The notes beneath the pieces were generated by a model. The model was given only the letters and a program-made list of their open reading frames with translations, had not been told where the DNA came from and did not search any database. The position numbers were made by a program, and so were the translations under genes. Shown here in pieces: positions 363-16,200 of a DNA stretch of 32,363 nucleotides. Source of the stretch: Candidatus Omnitrophota bacterium (GTDB lineage: Bacteria > Omnitrophota > Gorgyraeia > Zapsychrales > JANLHA01); assembly GCA_020849375.1 (NCBI GenBank), contig JADLGJ010000072.1, positions 1-32,363 on the forward strand. The letters are read 5' to 3'. Within the stretch, counting starts at the first letter, position 1. Each line of letters starts with the position of its first letter.

Positions 363-2911
363 AGAAGGTCTTTCAATTCTTTGATCTTATTTAACGCTTC
401 CAGCGGCGTCATCTGGTTGAGGTCGAGGGCCTTGATCGCATCTTTTAATTCTTCGGCAACAGGATCGCTTTTACTATTAAACAGAGAAAGCTGTTCGTCG
501 CCAGCGGATTTGACCGTTAAGCGCTGTTTTAAATTTCCCTGCGTTTCCAATTCCTTTAAGATCTTTTTCGAACGGGCAATGATCTCTTGCGGAACGCCGG
601 CGAGCTTCGCGACATAAATTCCGTAGCTGTCGTCCGTACTTCCCGGAATGATCTTGTGTAAAAAAATGATCTCATCTTTCCATTCTTTGACCGCCACATT
701 GTAATTCTTTACACCACTGTGCTCATCGGCCAAAGCGGTCAACTCATGAAAGTGTGTCGCAAATAAGGTTCGGCTTTTATTCTTTTGGAAATGTTCAGCC
801 AAGGCCCACGCTAAACTCAATCCGTCGTAAGTGCTTGTCCCTCGTCCGATCTCGTCGAGAATGACCAGGCTAGCCGGAGTTAAGTTGTTGAGAATGTCCG
901 CGGTTTCGCTCATTTCGACCATAAACGTGCTTTGGCCTTTAGTGATATCGTCATGAGCGCCGATGCGGGTGAAAATTTTGTCAACAACGCCGACAGCCGC
1001 ACTTTTCGCGGGAACATAACTGCCCATTTGGCTCAAAATAACCAAGAGCGCGATCTGGCGGATGTACGTTGATTTTCCGGCCATGTTCGGCCCGGTCAAA
1101 ATAATTAAATGTTGGTCTTGGCAATCGAGATAGGTGTCGTTGGGGATAAAATTCTGGGTTGACGTTTTCTCGACGACCGGATGGCGGCCTTCTTTGATAT
1201 CAAGAATGTGACCGTTGTTGATCTCCGGCGCGATATACCCATGTTCAAGCGAGAGAATAGCGAGAGAATATAAGGAATCAAGAGTCGCCGCACTTTGACT
1301 GAATTTGTGCAAGGCAGCGCTTTGATCGAGAATGGCTTTCTTTAATTGCTCGATCAATTCATTTTCGATCTTGCGGATCTTGTCCTCAGCGGTGAGGATC
1401 TTCTCTTCATATTCTTTGAGTTCCTGCGTAATAAAGCGTTCGCCATTGACCAGGGTTTGTTTACGGACAAAATCCTGCGGCACGAGATGAGCGTTCGCTT
1501 TGGTGACTTCGATGTAATAGCCGAACACATTATTGAAACCGACTTTCAGAGAATTGATCTTACTGCGGGCGATCTCTTTGCTTTGATATTGGCGCAGCCA
1601 TTCCTGGCCGTTGGTCTGAATATTTTTGAGGGCATCGAGATCGGCGTTGAAACCGCGGTTAATGACCTGCCCTTCATTATTCGCCAGAGGCATATCCGGA
1701 TTAACGGCGGCTTCCAGCAATTTTCTTAAACTTGGAATATCTTCGACGTTAAAGAGGCGGTTTTGTGAGGTGAGCGGCGCAATGGCTTGTTTGATCTTCG
1801 GGATCAGGGACAAACTGTTGCGGATCGAAAGAATATCTTTAGCGTGCGTGTATCCTGAACTGATCTTGGAAATTGATTTTTCAAGGTCGGGCAGAGATTG
1901 AAGGCATTCTTTGAGCGAACGCAACGTTTCGTTTTGGCCGCGTAAGAGCGTGACCGCTTTTTGCCGTTCCCGGATAGCGTCAACCTTGCGTAAAGGATGG
2001 CTGAGCCAGGAACGCAATTCGCGTTTGCCCATCGCGGTCAAGGTGTGATTGATCGTCCGGAAAAATGTTTCGATCTCGAGCCCATAATGCGCCGCCGGAG
2101 ATAAGTAAACAAATTCCTCATCGCTATAAAGGCTGATGCGGTCAATGTGGCGCAGCGGCTGGCGGTTCATGATCTTTAAATATTCCAACAGCGCGCCGGA
2201 GCTGGAAACGGCCATGGTTAATCCATCCAGGCCGAAACCGCGCAAGTTCAAGACCGCAAAGTGTTCACAGAGGTTCTTAGAAGCGATTTCCGGATTAAAA
2301 GACCAATTTTCCTGCGGGCTGAGGGTGAGAGTTTTAGTCTTCAAAAGCGGGTTCTGAAGGAGACTTTTGATCTTTTCTTCTTCGCTTGAGGGGAAAACGC
2401 ATTCATAAATAGGTAATCTGGCGAGCAATTCGATGATCTTATGGGGATTTTCAAACTGGTTGGCCTGGATCGCTCCGCTGACCGGGTCGGTGAAAGCGAT
2501 GCCGATCGTGGCCCCATTTGGACTTAGGGCGCAAAGATAGCGGGAATCCGCGGAATGTTCATCACAATAAGTTCCGGAAGAAATAACCCTGATGACATCG
2601 CGGCGCACGATCCCTTGAGCGGCGGCCGGATCTTCAACCTGTTCGCAGATAGCGACTTTGAACCCGGCTTTGATCAAGCGGCTAATATAGCCTTCGGAAG
2701 CGTGGAAAGGGATCCCGCACATCGGGATTTCGTTCGGAGTTCCGCGGCCGCGTGCCGTTAGGACCAGGTCCAGAACCTTGGACGCGGCTTTGGCGTCATC
2801 ATAAAACATTTCGTAGAAATCCCCAAGCCGGAAGAAAAGGATACAATCCTGATATTGCGCTTTGACCTTCTGGTATTGCGCGAGCATGGGGGTTGGGGCT
2901 TGGACGGTCAT
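359..2911 (-). CDS. mutS: DNA mismatch repair protein MutS
   Basis: 850 aa; TPMLAQYQKVKAQYQDCILFFRLGDFYEMFYDDA N-terminus, Walker A TGPNMAGKST, VILDEIGRGTSTYDG, FATHFHELT. Confidence 0.98.
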   Translation of the reverse strand: MTVQAPTPMLAQYQKVKAQYQDCILFFRLGDFYEMFYDDAKAASKVLDLVLTARGRGTPNEIPMCGIPFHASEGYISRLIKAGFKVAICEQVEDPAAAQGIVRRDVIRVISSGTYCDEHSADSRYLCALSPNGATIGIAFTDPVSGAIQANQFENPHKIIELLARLPIYECVFPSSEEEKIKSLLQNPLLKTKTLTLSPQENWSFNPEIASKNLCEHFAVLNLRGFGLDGLTMAVSSSGALLEYLKIMNRQPLRHIDRISLYSDEEFVYLSPAAHYGLEIETFFRTINHTLTAMGKRELRSWLSHPLRKVDAIRERQKAVTLLRGQNETLRSLKECLQSLPDLEKSISKISSGYTHAKDILSIRNSLSLIPKIKQAIAPLTSQNRLFNVEDIPSLRKLLEAAVNPDMPLANNEGQVINRGFNADLDALKNIQTNGQEWLRQYQSKEIARSKINSLKVGFNNVFGYYIEVTKANAHLVPQDFVRKQTLVNGERFITQELKEYEEKILTAEDKIRKIENELIEQLKKAILDQSAALHKFSQSAATLDSLYSLAILSLEHGYIAPEINNGHILDIKEGRHPVVEKTSTQNFIPNDTYLDCQDQHLIILTGPNMAGKSTYIRQIALLVILSQMGSYVPAKSAAVGVVDKIFTRIGAHDDITKGQSTFMVEMSETADILNNLTPASLVILDEIGRGTSTYDGLSLAWALAEHFQKNKSRTLFATHFHELTALADEHSGVKNYNVAVKEWKDEIIFLHKIIPGSTDDSYGIYVAKLAGVPQEIIARSKKILKELETQGNLKQRLTVKSAGDEQLSLFNSKSDPVAEELKDAIKALDLNQMTPLEALNKIKELKDLL

Positions 2912-2986
2912 TGCGGATAGTTATATCATAAAATTTTTATTCAATAAATTTTTATTTTTGGGGGTAATAAATATTATTAACCTTTG

Positions 2987-3015
2987 TTGCAGGGCTATTT
3001 CATCAATGTTATAAT
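2987..3015 (+). promoter_or_regulatory. Sigma-70-like promoter for the 3076 gene
   Basis: TTGCAG (2987-2992), 17-nt spacer, TATAAT (3010-3015), upstream of ATG 3076 in an AT-rich intergenic region. Confidence 0.6.
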
Positions 3016-3075
3016 CCAAAACATCATTAACAGAAAAGATTCCCGACGAATCTCTGAAAGACAATACGACTTCTT

Positions 3076-5589
3076 ATGAATAAAAAAATCTCAGTTGTTC
3101 TTGCTGCATTATTATTAAGCCCCCTTGCTTTTCTTTCCGTCGCTGACGCGAAGCCGAACTTAGCGGCCAAATTTTATCTTGAACAAGGCAAAAAGGAATT
3201 TAAGAATAAAGAATACGACCTTGCGATCAAGGAGTTCAATAAAGCGCTTTTGGCTGACCCCGAGAATGAAGAAGCCTTGATGTATTTGAAGATGCTCGGT
3301 TTTGGCGGTAAGGCATCATCGACACGCGAACAGGAGCCCGTCGCTAAAACAGAAGAAAAAGTAGAAGAAAAAACAAAAGATCAAATAAAAGATAAAGAAG
3401 AAAAGGCTGAGAATAAAGCCGAAAAGAAATCTGTCAAGAAAACCGACACTGTTAAGCCTAAAGTTGAGAAGACGGCCAGCCTTGTTGAAGCTTCTGAGGC
3501 GGAAGATACTGAAGAGGAAGATTCTGAAGCTGAAGATATGGATGCGCAAGATCATGTCCTTCAGGACATTGAAGACCAGATCGCGGCAGAAGAAGCTGCT
3601 GCGTTAAAAGCTTTGCATGAACAGGCGGCTAAAGACCAAGTTGCCCTTTTGAAGAAATTAGATCAGGTTGAGAAAAAAACAGAAACCCCTGCAGCTGTCC
3701 CTTCAAAAACAAAAGCGCCGAAAAAAGAATCGAAAGCTGATGCTGTTAAGAAAAGCCTTGCGGCAGAAGCAAAAAAATCTTCTGTAGCGCAAAAAACTGA
3801 ACCCAAGCCAGCGGATGTTGAAGATATCGCCGCTGAGGACGATCAAGCCGTCATTGAAGCCGTCGAAGATAAGCCGGAAGCCTCTGTTTCCGCCAGAGAA
3901 GCCGCGGCTGTTGCGAGCGTCAAGAAGAATACTTCCCGGGAAATAAGCGACTATCAGTCTAAGATTGAAGCTCAAACTGCGCAAAAGATCGAAAAAGTCC
4001 ACAACAAGTTTGCTGCTAAACCGATCGGCGAAAAAGAAAAAACGGTCTTTCGTGATTTTGATAATGACGGTGTGCCGGAAGCGATCTCGGTCAATGAAAA
4101 TAAGGCTATTGAAAAGATCGAGGCCGCTGCAAAGAAAGAAGAGCAGGCCGGAATAAAGAAGATCCAGAAACAAGGCCAGCAGGATGAAAAGACCGCATTG
4201 AAGAATTTGCGTGCCCTGATCAAGAAAGAAGAAAAGATGCAGCGCCGTGATCAAAAGACAGGTGACCTTAAGGCTGGCGATGTGGTCGGTTCTCCGGCGC
4301 TGAGCGCTACTGTCCATGATGATGAAGCGGACGAACTTGCTGCGGCGGAGGGCGTTTCCGGATCGGAGAAAGAGAATGCGGCACTGGCTCAGATGCGCGC
4401 TGATGTTGCCCGTAAAGAAAAAGACCTTGAGATGAAATATGCCAAGAAGAAGGCTATAAGGATGAGCGAGGCTGAAAAGAAGTCTAAGCCGCAGGTGCAG
4501 GAGCCAAAAGTTTCTTTGACCGATACTGATGAAAGTTATCCTGCCGACCTGGCGCAGCAGACCGAAGTTTTCCCGGTGGGTCAAAATATTTCCGTAACAA
4601 ATCCCAAATCGGTCCAGGCCCAGAACATTGTCCTGAAAAAGAAGTTCGCGCAAGTTGTTGAGATGTCGCAAAAAGACCAAGATTTGATCAAGGGCCTTGA
4701 AAAAGATCTTGAACAAAAGGACCAGAAAGTCGAAGCTTTGGAAAGCGATCTGCATGAAACAAAGACAACTCTCGATTCCAAGGTTGAAATGATCAAAGAA
4801 AAAGAAGAAAAGTTAAAAGACCTTTCCCAGCGGATCGCGGCAATGGAATCGGATGTCAATAGTAAGCAGTACGACTTTAAAGATAAGCAGATGGAATATG
4901 AAAAGAAACTGCAGGCGATCCAGGAAGAATTCGGTAATTATAAGACGGAAAGAACCAATTCAGAAGAAGAGTTGCGCGGACAGCTGAAGATCTTAAAAGA
5001 AGCTCTGGAGAAAAAGATCGCCGAGTTCAACGCCGCACAAGAAAAATTGATCTTTACCGAGAACAAACTCAAAAATAGTGAAGAAAAATACGCGCAGACC
5101 ACCAAGCAATATGATGACGTCAAGAAAACCTTGTCCGACCTCGAAGATCGCTTAGCGGGCCTCATGGCGCAACCGGCACCTGTGATTGACCAGGCTCCGC
5201 TCGTTACGGTCGACCCCAAGAACCTTCCGCCGCCGCAGAACCAGAATGAGGTTGTTTATCAGCAGTGGATCCAGCGCCAGGATCAGTTGGTCACGAAGCT
5301 TAAGAATAAACTTCTCTGGGCGCGTGAACAGATGGAATTCCTCGGCCGTTACGATATTAAATTGAGCGACCAGAAAATGGCCGCATTAAAAGAGCAGTTG
5401 GTCGAGGTTAAGAAGCAATTGAGCACGAAGGTTCCTTCCGGCCGTACTGATGAGGATTTTGCGGTGATGGATGCCCGCCTCAAGGATTCGCAGGAACGGC
5501 TTGAGATGGTTGAAAAGATCCTTCGTGAAAAAGATGACCAGGTTAAGGAATTGGAGAAACAATTGAACGAAGTTCTGTCCGCATTCTAA
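3076..5589 (+). CDS. Exported TPR / long coiled-coil protein with a calcium-loop-like motif
   Basis: Signal peptide MNKKISVVLAALLLSPLAFLSVADA; TPR-like segment (AKFYLEQGKKEFKNKEYDLAIKEFNKALLADPENEEAL); long K/E/A-rich coiled coil; FRDFDNDGVPEAISV resembles FG-GAP/VCBS DxDxDG loops. Confidence 0.85.
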   Translation: MNKKISVVLAALLLSPLAFLSVADAKPNLAAKFYLEQGKKEFKNKEYDLAIKEFNKALLADPENEEALMYLKMLGFGGKASSTREQEPVAKTEEKVEEKTKDQIKDKEEKAENKAEKKSVKKTDTVKPKVEKTASLVEASEAEDTEEEDSEAEDMDAQDHVLQDIEDQIAAEEAAALKALHEQAAKDQVALLKKLDQVEKKTETPAAVPSKTKAPKKESKADAVKKSLAAEAKKSSVAQKTEPKPADVEDIAAEDDQAVIEAVEDKPEASVSAREAAAVASVKKNTSREISDYQSKIEAQTAQKIEKVHNKFAAKPIGEKEKTVFRDFDNDGVPEAISVNENKAIEKIEAAAKKEEQAGIKKIQKQGQQDEKTALKNLRALIKKEEKMQRRDQKTGDLKAGDVVGSPALSATVHDDEADELAAAEGVSGSEKENAALAQMRADVARKEKDLEMKYAKKKAIRMSEAEKKSKPQVQEPKVSLTDTDESYPADLAQQTEVFPVGQNISVTNPKSVQAQNIVLKKKFAQVVEMSQKDQDLIKGLEKDLEQKDQKVEALESDLHETKTTLDSKVEMIKEKEEKLKDLSQRIAAMESDVNSKQYDFKDKQMEYEKKLQAIQEEFGNYKTERTNSEEELRGQLKILKEALEKKIAEFNAAQEKLIFTENKLKNSEEKYAQTTKQYDDVKKTLSDLEDRLAGLMAQPAPVIDQAPLVTVDPKNLPPPQNQNEVVYQQWIQRQDQLVTKLKNKLLWAREQMEFLGRYDIKLSDQKMAALKEQLVEVKKQLSTKVPSGRTDEDFAVMDARLKDSQERLEMVEKILREKDDQVKELEKQLNEVLSAF

Positions 5590-13456: not shown

Positions 13457-14107
13457 ATGGGTATAAGAAAAGGATTCTTTGAACACATTCGTGTCTGTAT
13501 TTTCCGCGGATTATTGGCGATCATTCCGATTTTGCTGTGCGTGCTGGCGGTCCAGCTTTTATATGTTTTGATCGACAAGCGGATCATGGGTTTTTTGGAT
13601 AAATTTATCAGTCTCCGGCAGATCCCGGGCTTGGGGATATTACTTCTTTTGTTGACGCTTTACTTGATCGGGTTGATCGTCAGTAATATTATCGGCCGTC
13701 AATTCTTTAAGCTTCTCGAGAATATTACCGAACGGATTCCTTTTATTAAAGCCATTTATTCCGTTGGGAAACAACTGTCACAGGGTCTTTCCGCCGCTGA
13801 AGGAAAAAGCCAGGCGTTTAAGAAGGCCCTTTTGGTCAAGGTGACTGACAATATTTGGGTGCCAGCTTTCTTAATGAATTCCAAAGTGGATCCAAAAACA
13901 GGGGAAGAATTGTATTTTGTTTTGATCCCTACGGCGCCTACTCCTGGGTCCGGCTTTGTCGCTATGGTCAAGCCCAGCCAGACCATTGACCCCGGCTGGA
14001 GTATTGAAGAATGTTTGAAGGCGATCGTTTCCGTTGGTATCGTTGTTCCGGAAAAACTTGGAGATTATGAAGGGCCCATTGCCAAGGAGACGGGCAACGA
14101 CATTTGA
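13457..14107 (+). CDS. DUF502 family membrane protein
   Basis: RGLLAIIPILLCVLAVQLLY..., IPGLGILLLLLTLYLIGLI, FIKAIYSVGKQLSQ, FVLIPTAPTPGSGFVAMV are typical DUF502 segments. Confidence 0.85.
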   Translation: MGIRKGFFEHIRVCIFRGLLAIIPILLCVLAVQLLYVLIDKRIMGFLDKFISLRQIPGLGILLLLLTLYLIGLIVSNIIGRQFFKLLENITERIPFIKAIYSVGKQLSQGLSAAEGKSQAFKKALLVKVTDNIWVPAFLMNSKVDPKTGEELYFVLIPTAPTPGSGFVAMVKPSQTIDPGWSIEECLKAIVSVGIVVPEKLGDYEGPIAKETGNDI

Positions 14108-14135
14108 CGATTACAAACAAGTCCTCAAATTGTAA

Positions 14136-14165
14136 TTCACAGAGCCGGCCGTTACCGTCTATACT
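14136..14165 (+). promoter_or_regulatory. Candidate sigma-70-like promoter of the HTH-GIDE-LemA operon
   Basis: TTCACA (14136-14141), 18-nt spacer, TATACT (14160-14165). Confidence 0.45.
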
Positions 14166-14183
14166 TTCAACACTATCGAAAGT
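14163..14183 (+). promoter_or_regulatory. Operator-like dyad overlapping the -10 and preceding the HTH gene
   Basis: ACTTTC-N9-GAAAGT, immediately followed by SD-like GAGGGAG and a TTG start at 14195. Confidence 0.45.
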
Positions 14184-14194
14184 GAGGGAGTGCA

Positions 14195-14674
14195 TTGGAA
14201 TCTTACGAAGTCCTTAAAAAAGCGTTTGCGAAGCCCGGGGCAAAAAAGATCGCCGCCGAGTTGGGTTTATCGCAATCCTTGGTCTATAAATGGTCGCAGA
14301 ATAAAGCTGACCCCGAGTCCTGGCAGCAGGGCGGGGCCGTTAACCCGCTCGACCGTATTAAACAGCTTTATGAATTGACCGGTGATGCTGAGCTGATCAA
14401 TTGGCTTTGCCAGACTGCTGACGGATATTTTGTAAAAAATCCAACTGTCAAGAAATCCAGCCGCGATGCGCAAGCGTTGAGAAATATCCAGCTTTTCATT
14501 AAAGAATTCTCCGAGGCGCTTGATGCGATCTCAAAATCGTATGATGACGACAAAAGTATTGATTCCAAAGAAGCTGTCAAGATCCGCAACGCCTGGGAAG
14601 ATCTCAAGCGGGTCGGCGAAGCGTTTGTCAGGGAGTGCGAGAAAGGTGATTTTAATAAAAAATCGAGAAAATGA
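14195..14674 (+). CDS. HTH DNA-binding protein (phage CI/CII-regulator-like)
   Basis: AKKIAAELGLSQSLVYKWSQNKADPE helix-turn-helix. TTG start is the only in-frame start after the upstream stop that fits the SD. Confidence 0.75.
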   Translation: MESYEVLKKAFAKPGAKKIAAELGLSQSLVYKWSQNKADPESWQQGGAVNPLDRIKQLYELTGDAELINWLCQTADGYFVKNPTVKKSSRDAQALRNIQLFIKEFSEALDAISKSYDDDKSIDSKEAVKIRNAWEDLKRVGEAFVRECEKGDFNKKSRK

Positions 14675-15597
14675 GCGACGATCGCGATATAGCTTTTGCC
14701 TTTTTGGGGTTAGGGGCCGGCATATTCTTGTTTTTTAACGGATTTAGGATCTTTCGCAAGAAACAGCTCATTGACAATGTCCCGACCTCGACGGTGCGCG
14801 GCATGGCGATGGGCTTGGTCGAATTGAGCGGGCGTGCGGTGCGAGGGGCACCTTTGAAGGGGCCGTTGAGCCGCGAAGATTGTGCGGCGTACACTTACTG
14901 TATTGAACGTTATGAGCGGCGCGGCAAGTCCAGTTCATGGGTCACGATCGCGAAAGGGGACAGTTTTCATTGCTCTTTTGACGTGGAAGATGAGACCGGA
15001 AAGGTCACCGTGATGCCGTATGGCGTGGAGTTCATTTGTAATGTCCGGTATTTTTTTGAAACAGGATTGATGACCCCGCTGCCGCCCAACTTGTCGGGGT
15101 TTATGAATAATGCGGGCATTTCTTACGGCGGGTTTTTTGGTAATAGCAGGTTACGTTTTACCGAACGCAATATTCAACCCGGTGAACCTATTTATGTCCT
15201 GGGCACGGCCAAAAAAACGAACGCTGCATTAGCTGACGCGGACGTTTATAAAAGTAAATTAGCTCAGCGGCTTAATGAAGTTAAGGGCGATGCGAAGTTC
15301 ATGGCTGAGATTGACGGGAATAAGGATGGTAATGTTAGCGACGAGGAATGGCAGAAGGCTGTGATGAAGATCGAGCATGACCTGTTGCAAAGCGAGGTCA
15401 GCAGTGCGGCGTCATCCCAGCTTCCTGATGTCGTGATCGCAAGAGGCGATGTCGAGAGAATATTTATTATTTCTGATAAAAGCCAAAAGGAACTGGGTGC
15501 GGTGCTGGGTTGGCAGGTCATTGGAGGGGTTTTCGGCGGTGCGGTGGTGTCCGTTGCGTGTTTGTGGTATTTATTGGTGCGGTTTCATATATTTTAG
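14671..15597 (+). CDS. GIDE/MULAN-like membrane protein with an inserted EF-hand
   Basis: N- and C-terminal TM segments; VELSGRAV.GAPLKGPLSREDCAAYTYCIERYERRGKSSSW resembles the GIDE domain; canonical EF-hand loop DGNKDGNVSDEE; ATGA overlap with the HTH gene. Confidence 0.75.
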   Translation: MSDDRDIAFAFLGLGAGIFLFFNGFRIFRKKQLIDNVPTSTVRGMAMGLVELSGRAVRGAPLKGPLSREDCAAYTYCIERYERRGKSSSWVTIAKGDSFHCSFDVEDETGKVTVMPYGVEFICNVRYFFETGLMTPLPPNLSGFMNNAGISYGGFFGNSRLRFTERNIQPGEPIYVLGTAKKTNAALADADVYKSKLAQRLNEVKGDAKFMAEIDGNKDGNVSDEEWQKAVMKIEHDLLQSEVSSAASSQLPDVVIARGDVERIFIISDKSQKELGAVLGWQVIGGVFGGAVVSVACLWYLLVRFHIF

Positions 15598-15627
15598 GTG
15601 ATGGGGCTTAATTAACAAGGAGGAAGT

Positions 15628-16200
15628 ATGGGGTATATTATTCTTGCAATTATCTTTTTTGTGGCCGTCGGGCTAGCGCTGTATTTTGTCGGCGTTTATA
15701 ACGGGCTTATCCTGCTCTCGCGCAACATCGATAAGGCGTGGGCCAATATTGACGTTTTATTAAAACAGCGTTACGACGAAATTCCCAAGCTCGTTAAGGT
15801 TTGCGAAGGGTACATGAAATATGAAGCGGAGACTTTGAGCAAGATCACCGCGGCACGCACGGCGTGCATGAACGCTAAATCCGTCGGAGAAACGGCTGCC
15901 GCCGAAGGGATGTTGACGCAGTCTTTGAAAACGTTATTCGCTGTTTCGGAGAATTATCCTGATCTTAAGGCGAATAATAATTTCTCCCAGCTGCAGGGCC
16001 GCGTGAGTTATTTGGAAAGCCAGCTCGCTGACCGCCGGGAATTCTACAATGATTCCGTCAATACGTACAATATTCGTATCAACCAGATCCCTGACGTGAT
16101 CGTCGCGCGCAATATGCTCAATTATAAAGAACGCGATCTGTTCAAAGTTGGCGAAGAAGAGCGTAAAGACGTTGATATCAAGTTCGATTTTCCGAAGTAG
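15628..16200 (+). CDS. lemA: LemA family protein
   Basis: N-terminal TM, YNGLILLSRNIDKAWANIDVLLKQRYDEIPKLVKVCEGYMKYEAETLSKITAAR and YNDSVNTYNIRINQIPDVIVA are diagnostic; SD AAGGAGGA upstream. Confidence 0.93.
   Translation: MGYIILAIIFFVAVGLALYFVGVYNGLILLSRNIDKAWANIDVLLKQRYDEIPKLVKVCEGYMKYEAETLSKITAARTACMNAKSVGETAAAEGMLTQSLKTLFAVSENYPDLKANNNFSQLQGRVSYLESQLADRREFYNDSVNTYNIRINQIPDVIVARNMLNYKERDLFKVGEEERKDVDIKFDFPK

Follow-up and report, generated by a model that had tools for sequence, protein, structure and literature searches.

The locus studied here raises the question of why a gene for a helix-turn-helix (HTH) protein of a phage-type family stands at the head of an operon whose other two genes encode membrane proteins. 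It lies on a stretch of 32,363 nucleotides, hereafter the window, which is contig C72 of the 1.55-Mb, 123-contig genome (G000) of a Candidatus Omnitrophota bacterium. The HTH gene is followed by genes for a protein with GIDE, a domain of the mitochondrial ligase MAPL/MULAN, and for a LemA protein. To our knowledge both families are common among bacterial membrane proteins but have no well-established function, and we know of almost nothing about regulation in the Omnitrophota and Elusimicrobiota. The initial annotation tentatively regarded the operon as an envelope-stress or conflict-type module autoregulated by a phage-repressor-like protein. Comparison across genomes leads us to a different reading that we consider likely: the HTH protein is a chromosomal activator of the phage 186 CII type and commands a regulon for membrane integrity to which its own operon belongs.

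The operon and its promoter

The coordinates of the three same-strand open reading frames and the four-base ATGA overlap of the HTH and GIDE genes were confirmed (Table 1), and Pfam upheld the LemA assignment. The GIDE domain scored just over the Pfam cut-off of 23.6 bits in the window and was matched by all eight aligned orthologues, at best with an E value of 7e-16. The EF-hand proposed for the same protein has a canonical loop; it is sub-threshold in the window protein by itself and recognized in most orthologues. Upstream, a DUF502 gene on the strand of the HTH gene ends 2 bp before the candidate operator described below and is probably not part of the operon; at an Elusimicrobia locus (L057) a DUF502 gene (49.5 bits) also accompanies the HTH gene, there on its 3' side. 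A gene that resembles comM follows the operon in the opposite direction. PADLOC gave no match for the HTH, GIDE, LemA or DUF502 proteins and no phage genes were seen in the window; the conflict-type or defence reading was therefore dropped.

Table 1. Features of the locus, with positions in the window
Feature	Position	Strand	Basis
DUF502 membrane protein gene	13457..14107	+	Pfam DUF502, 79.9 bits
Left half-site of candidate operator, ATTACAA, centred at -59 from the predicted transcription start	14110..14116	+	TTAYAAA at fixed spacing in 13/13 intergenic promoters; geometry
Right half-site of candidate operator, TTGTAAT, centred at -39	14130..14136	+	perfect inverted repeat of the left half-site
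-35 hexamer TTCACA	14136..14141	+	third base not G, as in 15/16 aligned sites
-10 hexamer TATACT, 18-bp spacer	14160..14165	+	promoter alignment; geometry
Dyad ACTTTC-N9-GAAAGT of the initial annotation, probably chance	14163..14183	+	not conserved
Ribosome-binding site GAGGGAG	14184..14190	+	sequence
HTH transcription factor of CII type, 159 aa, start codon TTG	14195..14674	+	Phage_CP76 / PHROG 101; AlphaFold2 model and Foldseek
GIDE/BAM-domain membrane protein, 308 aa, predicted terminal hydrophobic helices	14671..15597	+	Pfam GIDE, 24.0 bits; 8/8 orthologues
EF-hand loop DGNKDGNVSDEE within the GIDE protein	15313..15348	+	EF-hand in 6/8 orthologues
LemA family protein, 190 aa	15628..16200	+	Pfam LemA, 168 bits; adjoins GIDE in 8/8 loci

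The promoter TTCACA-18-TATACT was likewise borne out, and its layout is conserved in orthologous promoters: the -10 element keeps its TATACT form, and all but one of 16 sites have a base other than the G of TTGACA at the third position of the -35 element. The operator proposed earlier did not fare as well. The dyad ACTTTC-N9-GAAAGT exists and occurs in exact form just once in the window, but an alignment of orthologous upstream regions showed it in none of the HTH promoters examined, and shuffling the 86-bp leader yields a perfect 6-bp dyad with a spacer of 3–15 in 18% of cases. Given this lack of conservation and a frequency near chance expectation, we rejected it as the operator. A better candidate, judged from sequence, is a perfect 7-bp inverted repeat that the initial annotation did not mention, ATTACAA-N13-TTGTAAT. 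It abuts the -35 element in such a way that the last T of the right half-site is the first base of the hexamer. The half-site centres lie 20 bp apart, at -58 and -38 in most sites; the 18-bp spacer of the window promoter places them one base further upstream.

A conserved site in HTH-bearing genomes

Promoters of HTH orthologues from different genera, whose proteins are about 55% identical, were aligned and gave TTRTAATTnnCA at the -35 region and, ahead of it, TTAYAAA; in every intergenic case (13/13) the two motifs start exactly 19 bp apart. The resulting pattern TTAYAAA-N12-TTRTAATTnnCA was counted with at most one mismatch in 92 whole genomes, all of them drafts and mostly metagenome-assembled, so that a missing gene or site may reflect an assembly gap. 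The exact site occurs in 10 of the 11 genomes with the HTH gene vs 1 of the 81 without it (Fisher p=2e-11, a value inflated for the loci from which the pattern was built). The pattern derives partly from loci that were later counted; the independent sites are those on contigs C44 of the window genome and C16 of G038 and those in G002 and G369. The single exact copy in a genome lacking the HTH gene sits within an ORF of 1969 aa. Apart from this intragenic copy, the exact site is restricted to HTH-bearing genomes among the 92 compared. It also recurs with the same layout in a genome of another phylum (Elusimicrobia). A relaxed pattern without the left half-site was discarded as too unspecific, as it matched in many genomes without the HTH gene. 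The HTH promoter of G002 has no site, and no convincing operator was seen near the HTH homologues of Planctomycetota, Verrucomicrobiota, Auribacterota and Firestonebacteria. Further sites with one or two mismatches and unclear targets, such as G009:C20, G009:C21, G038:C31:125714 and G370:C68, were left uncounted.

Many genes behind the site encode membrane proteins; some targets are not clearly of this kind. Exact copies number just two in the window genome, one before the HTH-GIDE-LemA operon and one on another contig (G000:C44:2116-2146), where it precedes genes for an NfeD protein (2390-2848) and an SPFH protein (2876-3811). Two copies stand side by side in G009, before GIDE-LemA and before HTH-NfeD-SPFH. 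G038 carries one copy before an operon of the HTH gene, a YqiJ-like gene and a flotillin gene and an unlinked exact copy before an M48 (HtpX-like) protease gene. In G002 a copy with two mismatches and a perfect TATAAT precedes a YqiJ-like-flotillin pair, with the HTH gene elsewhere; YqiJ-like proteins were named by their size, position and hydrophobic start and have no Pfam NfeD match. The Elusimicrobia genome has exact copies before the HTH gene, which adjoins a gene for a zinc-ribbon SPFH protein, and before a zinc-ribbon protein gene. In the same genome, and unlinked to the HTH gene, the region L220:2040-2122 (G369:C370) contains two overlapping dyads of opposite orientation, each with two mismatches; they are flanked by LemA-DUF3137, in which the LemA frame is broken, and by a divergent DUF3137 gene. 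A copy in G067 precedes a gene for an 80-aa hydrophobic protein. The operator on contig C31 of G040 (L176:2434-6046) stands before a gene for a membrane protein of 248 aa that Pfam does not recognize; a Fur-like gene and a catalase-peroxidase gene come next. In G029, G040 and G076 the convergent neighbour carries the site in place of the HTH gene. Genes of a family of about 255–281 aa lie convergent with the HTH gene, and in three genomes their promoters contain the operator (L030:175-1020, L034:6303-7076 and L036:3674-4441); two scanned members had no Pfam match.

GIDE-LemA itself is not an obligatory member of the regulon, as far as site sequences tell. No operator within one mismatch precedes GIDE-LemA in G003, an HTH-bearing genome, and none was found before GIDE-LemA in genomes without the HTH gene. 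The absence of a recognizable site in G003 indicates that regulon membership shifts between lineages. The expectation that the HTH gene is co-conserved with GIDE and LemA stood for the window and G009, where they are adjacent, but not for G003, and thus for two of the three HTH-bearing genomes with a clear GIDE orthologue. More often the HTH gene is joined to SPFH modules, and we therefore abandoned an obligatory tie to GIDE-LemA. Its neighbours are NfeD-SPFH in G003 and G009, SPFH in G067, YqiJ-like-flotillin in G033 and G038, and a zinc-ribbon SPFH protein with a Tim44-domain protein in Elusimicrobia. Genomes hold 2–7 SPFH genes each, and one of these lies at most two genes from the HTH gene in 5 of 11 genomes, where about 1% or less would be expected for each. 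The linkage has a p value of about 5e-9, which is overstated because the genomes were treated as independent. In G005 the HTH gene (L031:31-501) ends its contig facing outwards, and an NfeD-SPFH pair lies 27 bp from the end of another contig (L177); probably these are the halves of one broken HTH-NfeD-SPFH operon.

Both copies in the window genome show an unusual variant, TTGTAATTCACA. At both operators the variant half-site TTGTAAT occurs alongside a serine at residue 34 of the HTH protein, which replaces a cysteine of the recognition helix (YKWCQ) that is nearly invariant in the homologues. The link between residue and half-site is not strict, as G038 combines the variant half-site with cysteine.

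The regulator and its proposed mode of action

The window HTH protein scored 25.1 bits against the Pfam family Phage_CP76 and thus fell 0.9 bit short of the cut-off of 26, whereas all 23 aligned homologues matched this family at E≤1e-3 (best 2e-10). PHROG 101 was matched at E=1e-9. An AlphaFold2 model from 22 alignment rows (mean pLDDT 78) shows an N-terminal HTH domain of five helices, with a long helical hairpin at the C-terminal end. In a Foldseek search of the PDB the seven best hits were all structures of phage 186 CII, with weak E values of 0.008–0.4, probabilities up to 0.98 and TM scores mostly below 0.3 (0.24–0.29); we take this modelled likeness as a lead rather than proof. A sequence search retrieved no solved relatives and a viral fold library gave no significant match; the tree of the HTH family is poorly resolved. 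No homologue was found in 50,697 phage records or in IMG/VR, which argues against a recent phage origin. Since the gene is chromosomal and without phage context, we assign its product to the Phage_CP76 sequence family as a CII-type protein and do not call it a phage CII.

CII of phage 186 binds the pE promoter, whose basal strength is negligible, at an inverted repeat; the half-sites lie two helix turns apart with centres at -38 and -58, and the protein touches both the alpha and the sigma subunit (PMC6593788). The agreement of our sites with this geometry is independent support, because it was not used in building the pattern. The regulator studied here resembles 186/P2-type CII in family, spacing of the candidate inverted repeat and a weak -35 element, and the solved folds nearest to its model, by weak hits, are those of 186 CII. 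It differs in its chromosomal location outside any prophage, its half-site TTAYAA, the lack of protein matches in phage records and its putative targets, which are cellular membrane genes and often unlinked. CII of phage lambda is a small HTH activator acting at the -35 region as well, but it binds a direct repeat, TTGC-N6-TTGC, and not an inverted one, and its complex (8igr) ranked ninth in the Foldseek search with a weak match. It has been called unrelated to 186 CII (PMC7708051).

On this basis we propose that the HTH protein, as a dimer or higher oligomer, would bind the candidate site ATTACAA-N13-TTGTAAT with the half-sites about two helix turns apart and, once bound, draw RNA polymerase to the promoter, whose -35 element is weak. 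Its own operon with GIDE and LemA would thereby be switched on and, in trans, NfeD-SPFH on contig C44. A membrane-related signal, presumably membrane stress, would cause the CII-type protein to accumulate or become active. In relatives the regulon would comprise SPFH/flotillin genes with NfeD or YqiJ partners, GIDE-LemA, LemA-DUF3137 and the M48 (HtpX-like) protease. The products would work at the membrane, GIDE and LemA in one complex and SPFH/NfeD in another. The idea of a regulated and autoregulated envelope module is thus supported by the TTAYAAA/TTRTAATT site, although the operator first put forward for it failed on conservation.

The same protein at the same site could also act in the opposite sense, occluding the -35 element until it is released or degraded under stress. 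Autoregulation of a first gene is usual for repressors, the right half-site abuts the -35 element and shares a base with it, CII-type proteins have the HTH fold of repressors, and there is a weak match to PHROG 35. However, the half-sites stand where those of the 186 CII activator stand (PMC6593788), repressors more often cover the stretch from -35 to +1, and the nearly general lack of the G of TTGACA is what would be expected if the promoters need activation. A CII-like regulator accordingly makes activation at a weak -35 likelier than the simple repression implied by "phage-repressor-like", which we regard as unlikely.

That the HTH gene is merely one member of the regulon, with the site read as a promoter element by an alternative sigma factor or another regulator, seems to us quite improbable. 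The HTH gene itself often carries the site, and the element includes the -35 region while the -10 keeps one form, as this explanation would have it. Against it, the exact site tracks the HTH gene across the 92 genomes, the dyad has the geometry of the family to which the HTH protein belongs, and in the three genomes with the site on the neighbour of the HTH gene both have nevertheless been kept together. Least credible of all, with hardly any chance of being correct, is an ordinary operon in which a local phage-derived HTH protein regulates itself and GIDE-LemA through ACTTTC-N9-GAAAGT without any wider regulon. This would account for the exact inverted repeat of 6 bp that overlaps the -10 element; beyond the objections to that dyad given above, the protein has no counterpart in the phage collections and the second operator on contig C44 would be unexplained.

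For the activator, one may speculate that membrane proteases degrade the protein and that stress is perhaps sensed in this way, by analogy with 186 CII, a substrate of FtsH and RseP (PMC7708051). In E. coli, FtsH together with the SPFH proteins HflKC breaks down lambda CII (PMC1838920). In a bolder version, which we consider doubtful, a cellular counterpart of CII would sense membrane trouble directly: overloaded FtsH and RseP would spare it, and the accumulating protein would turn on SPFH/NfeD, GIDE-LemA and the HtpX-like protease, with SPFH modulating FtsH. If this were true, phage CII would be a captured bacterial membrane-stress sensor, or the reverse.

Membrane modules and related systems

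GIDE and LemA genes adjoin at all eight clear loci. Moreover, in G030 (L043:6906-8231) a single ORF fuses GIDE (91-243) with LemA (295-437), and G044 (L045:1936-3246) has a similar one. Following the usual reasoning on gene fusions, we take this as good evidence for joint action of both proteins, probably in one membrane complex. A low-confidence model of the GIDE protein (two alignment rows, mean pLDDT 50) places its terminal helices at 2-35 and 272-304, and a sequence search for solved relatives yielded only EF-hand proteins and weak chance matches. Where the EF-hand loop is kept, calcium or another ion may serve as an input. In MAPL/MULAN a BAM domain lies between two membrane helices, and bacterial forms without RING are known (PMC4457424). 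The protein described here differs by its EF-hand insert and by LemA as partner or fusion, and it has no RING.

In function the closest parallel is the sigma-W regulon of Bacillus subtilis, which includes yuaF-floT-yuaI (NfeD-like/flotillin), yqeZ-yqfA-yqfB (NfeD-SPFH) and pspA-ydjGHI with the SPFH protein YdjI (PMC3498285). In both cases one regulator would stand over several membrane-defence operons. The regulator there is an ECF sigma factor, here a putative CII-type activator with GIDE-LemA added to its targets, and no pspA was seen among the targets of the site. SPFH/NfeD/YqiJ modules with varied local regulators have been described in Psp-type and NfeD-SPFH stress operons (PMC9239133, PMC11237479, PMC2636767); the passages of this literature covered by our search contain neither a link to LemA or GIDE nor a CII-type regulator. 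A search of open-licence papers likewise returned no account of a CII-type membrane regulon. The regulon proposed here, defined by the sequence of its site, puts GIDE and LemA in the company of SPFH, NfeD, flotillin and HtpX-like proteins. It would also give a phage-186-type CII a cellular role in maintaining membranes.

Further genes were seen next to the HTH gene or its partners. A gene for an RtcB RNA ligase, with a small ORF upstream of it, lies 3' of the HTH gene in G002 (L027:4658-6365), and a similar pair, with RtcB assigned by resemblance, lies 3' of NfeD-SPFH in G005 (L177:2187-3909). In Planctomycetota and Verrucomicrobiota the HTH gene stands beside a gene for an iron/manganese superoxide dismutase in at least two cases. 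At L061:5197-5811 and L065:5045-5779 (Phycisphaerae/Planctomycetota), where the operator of the Omnitrophota type was not seen, the HTH homologue is divergent from this dismutase gene, a neighbour that hints at oxidative stress.
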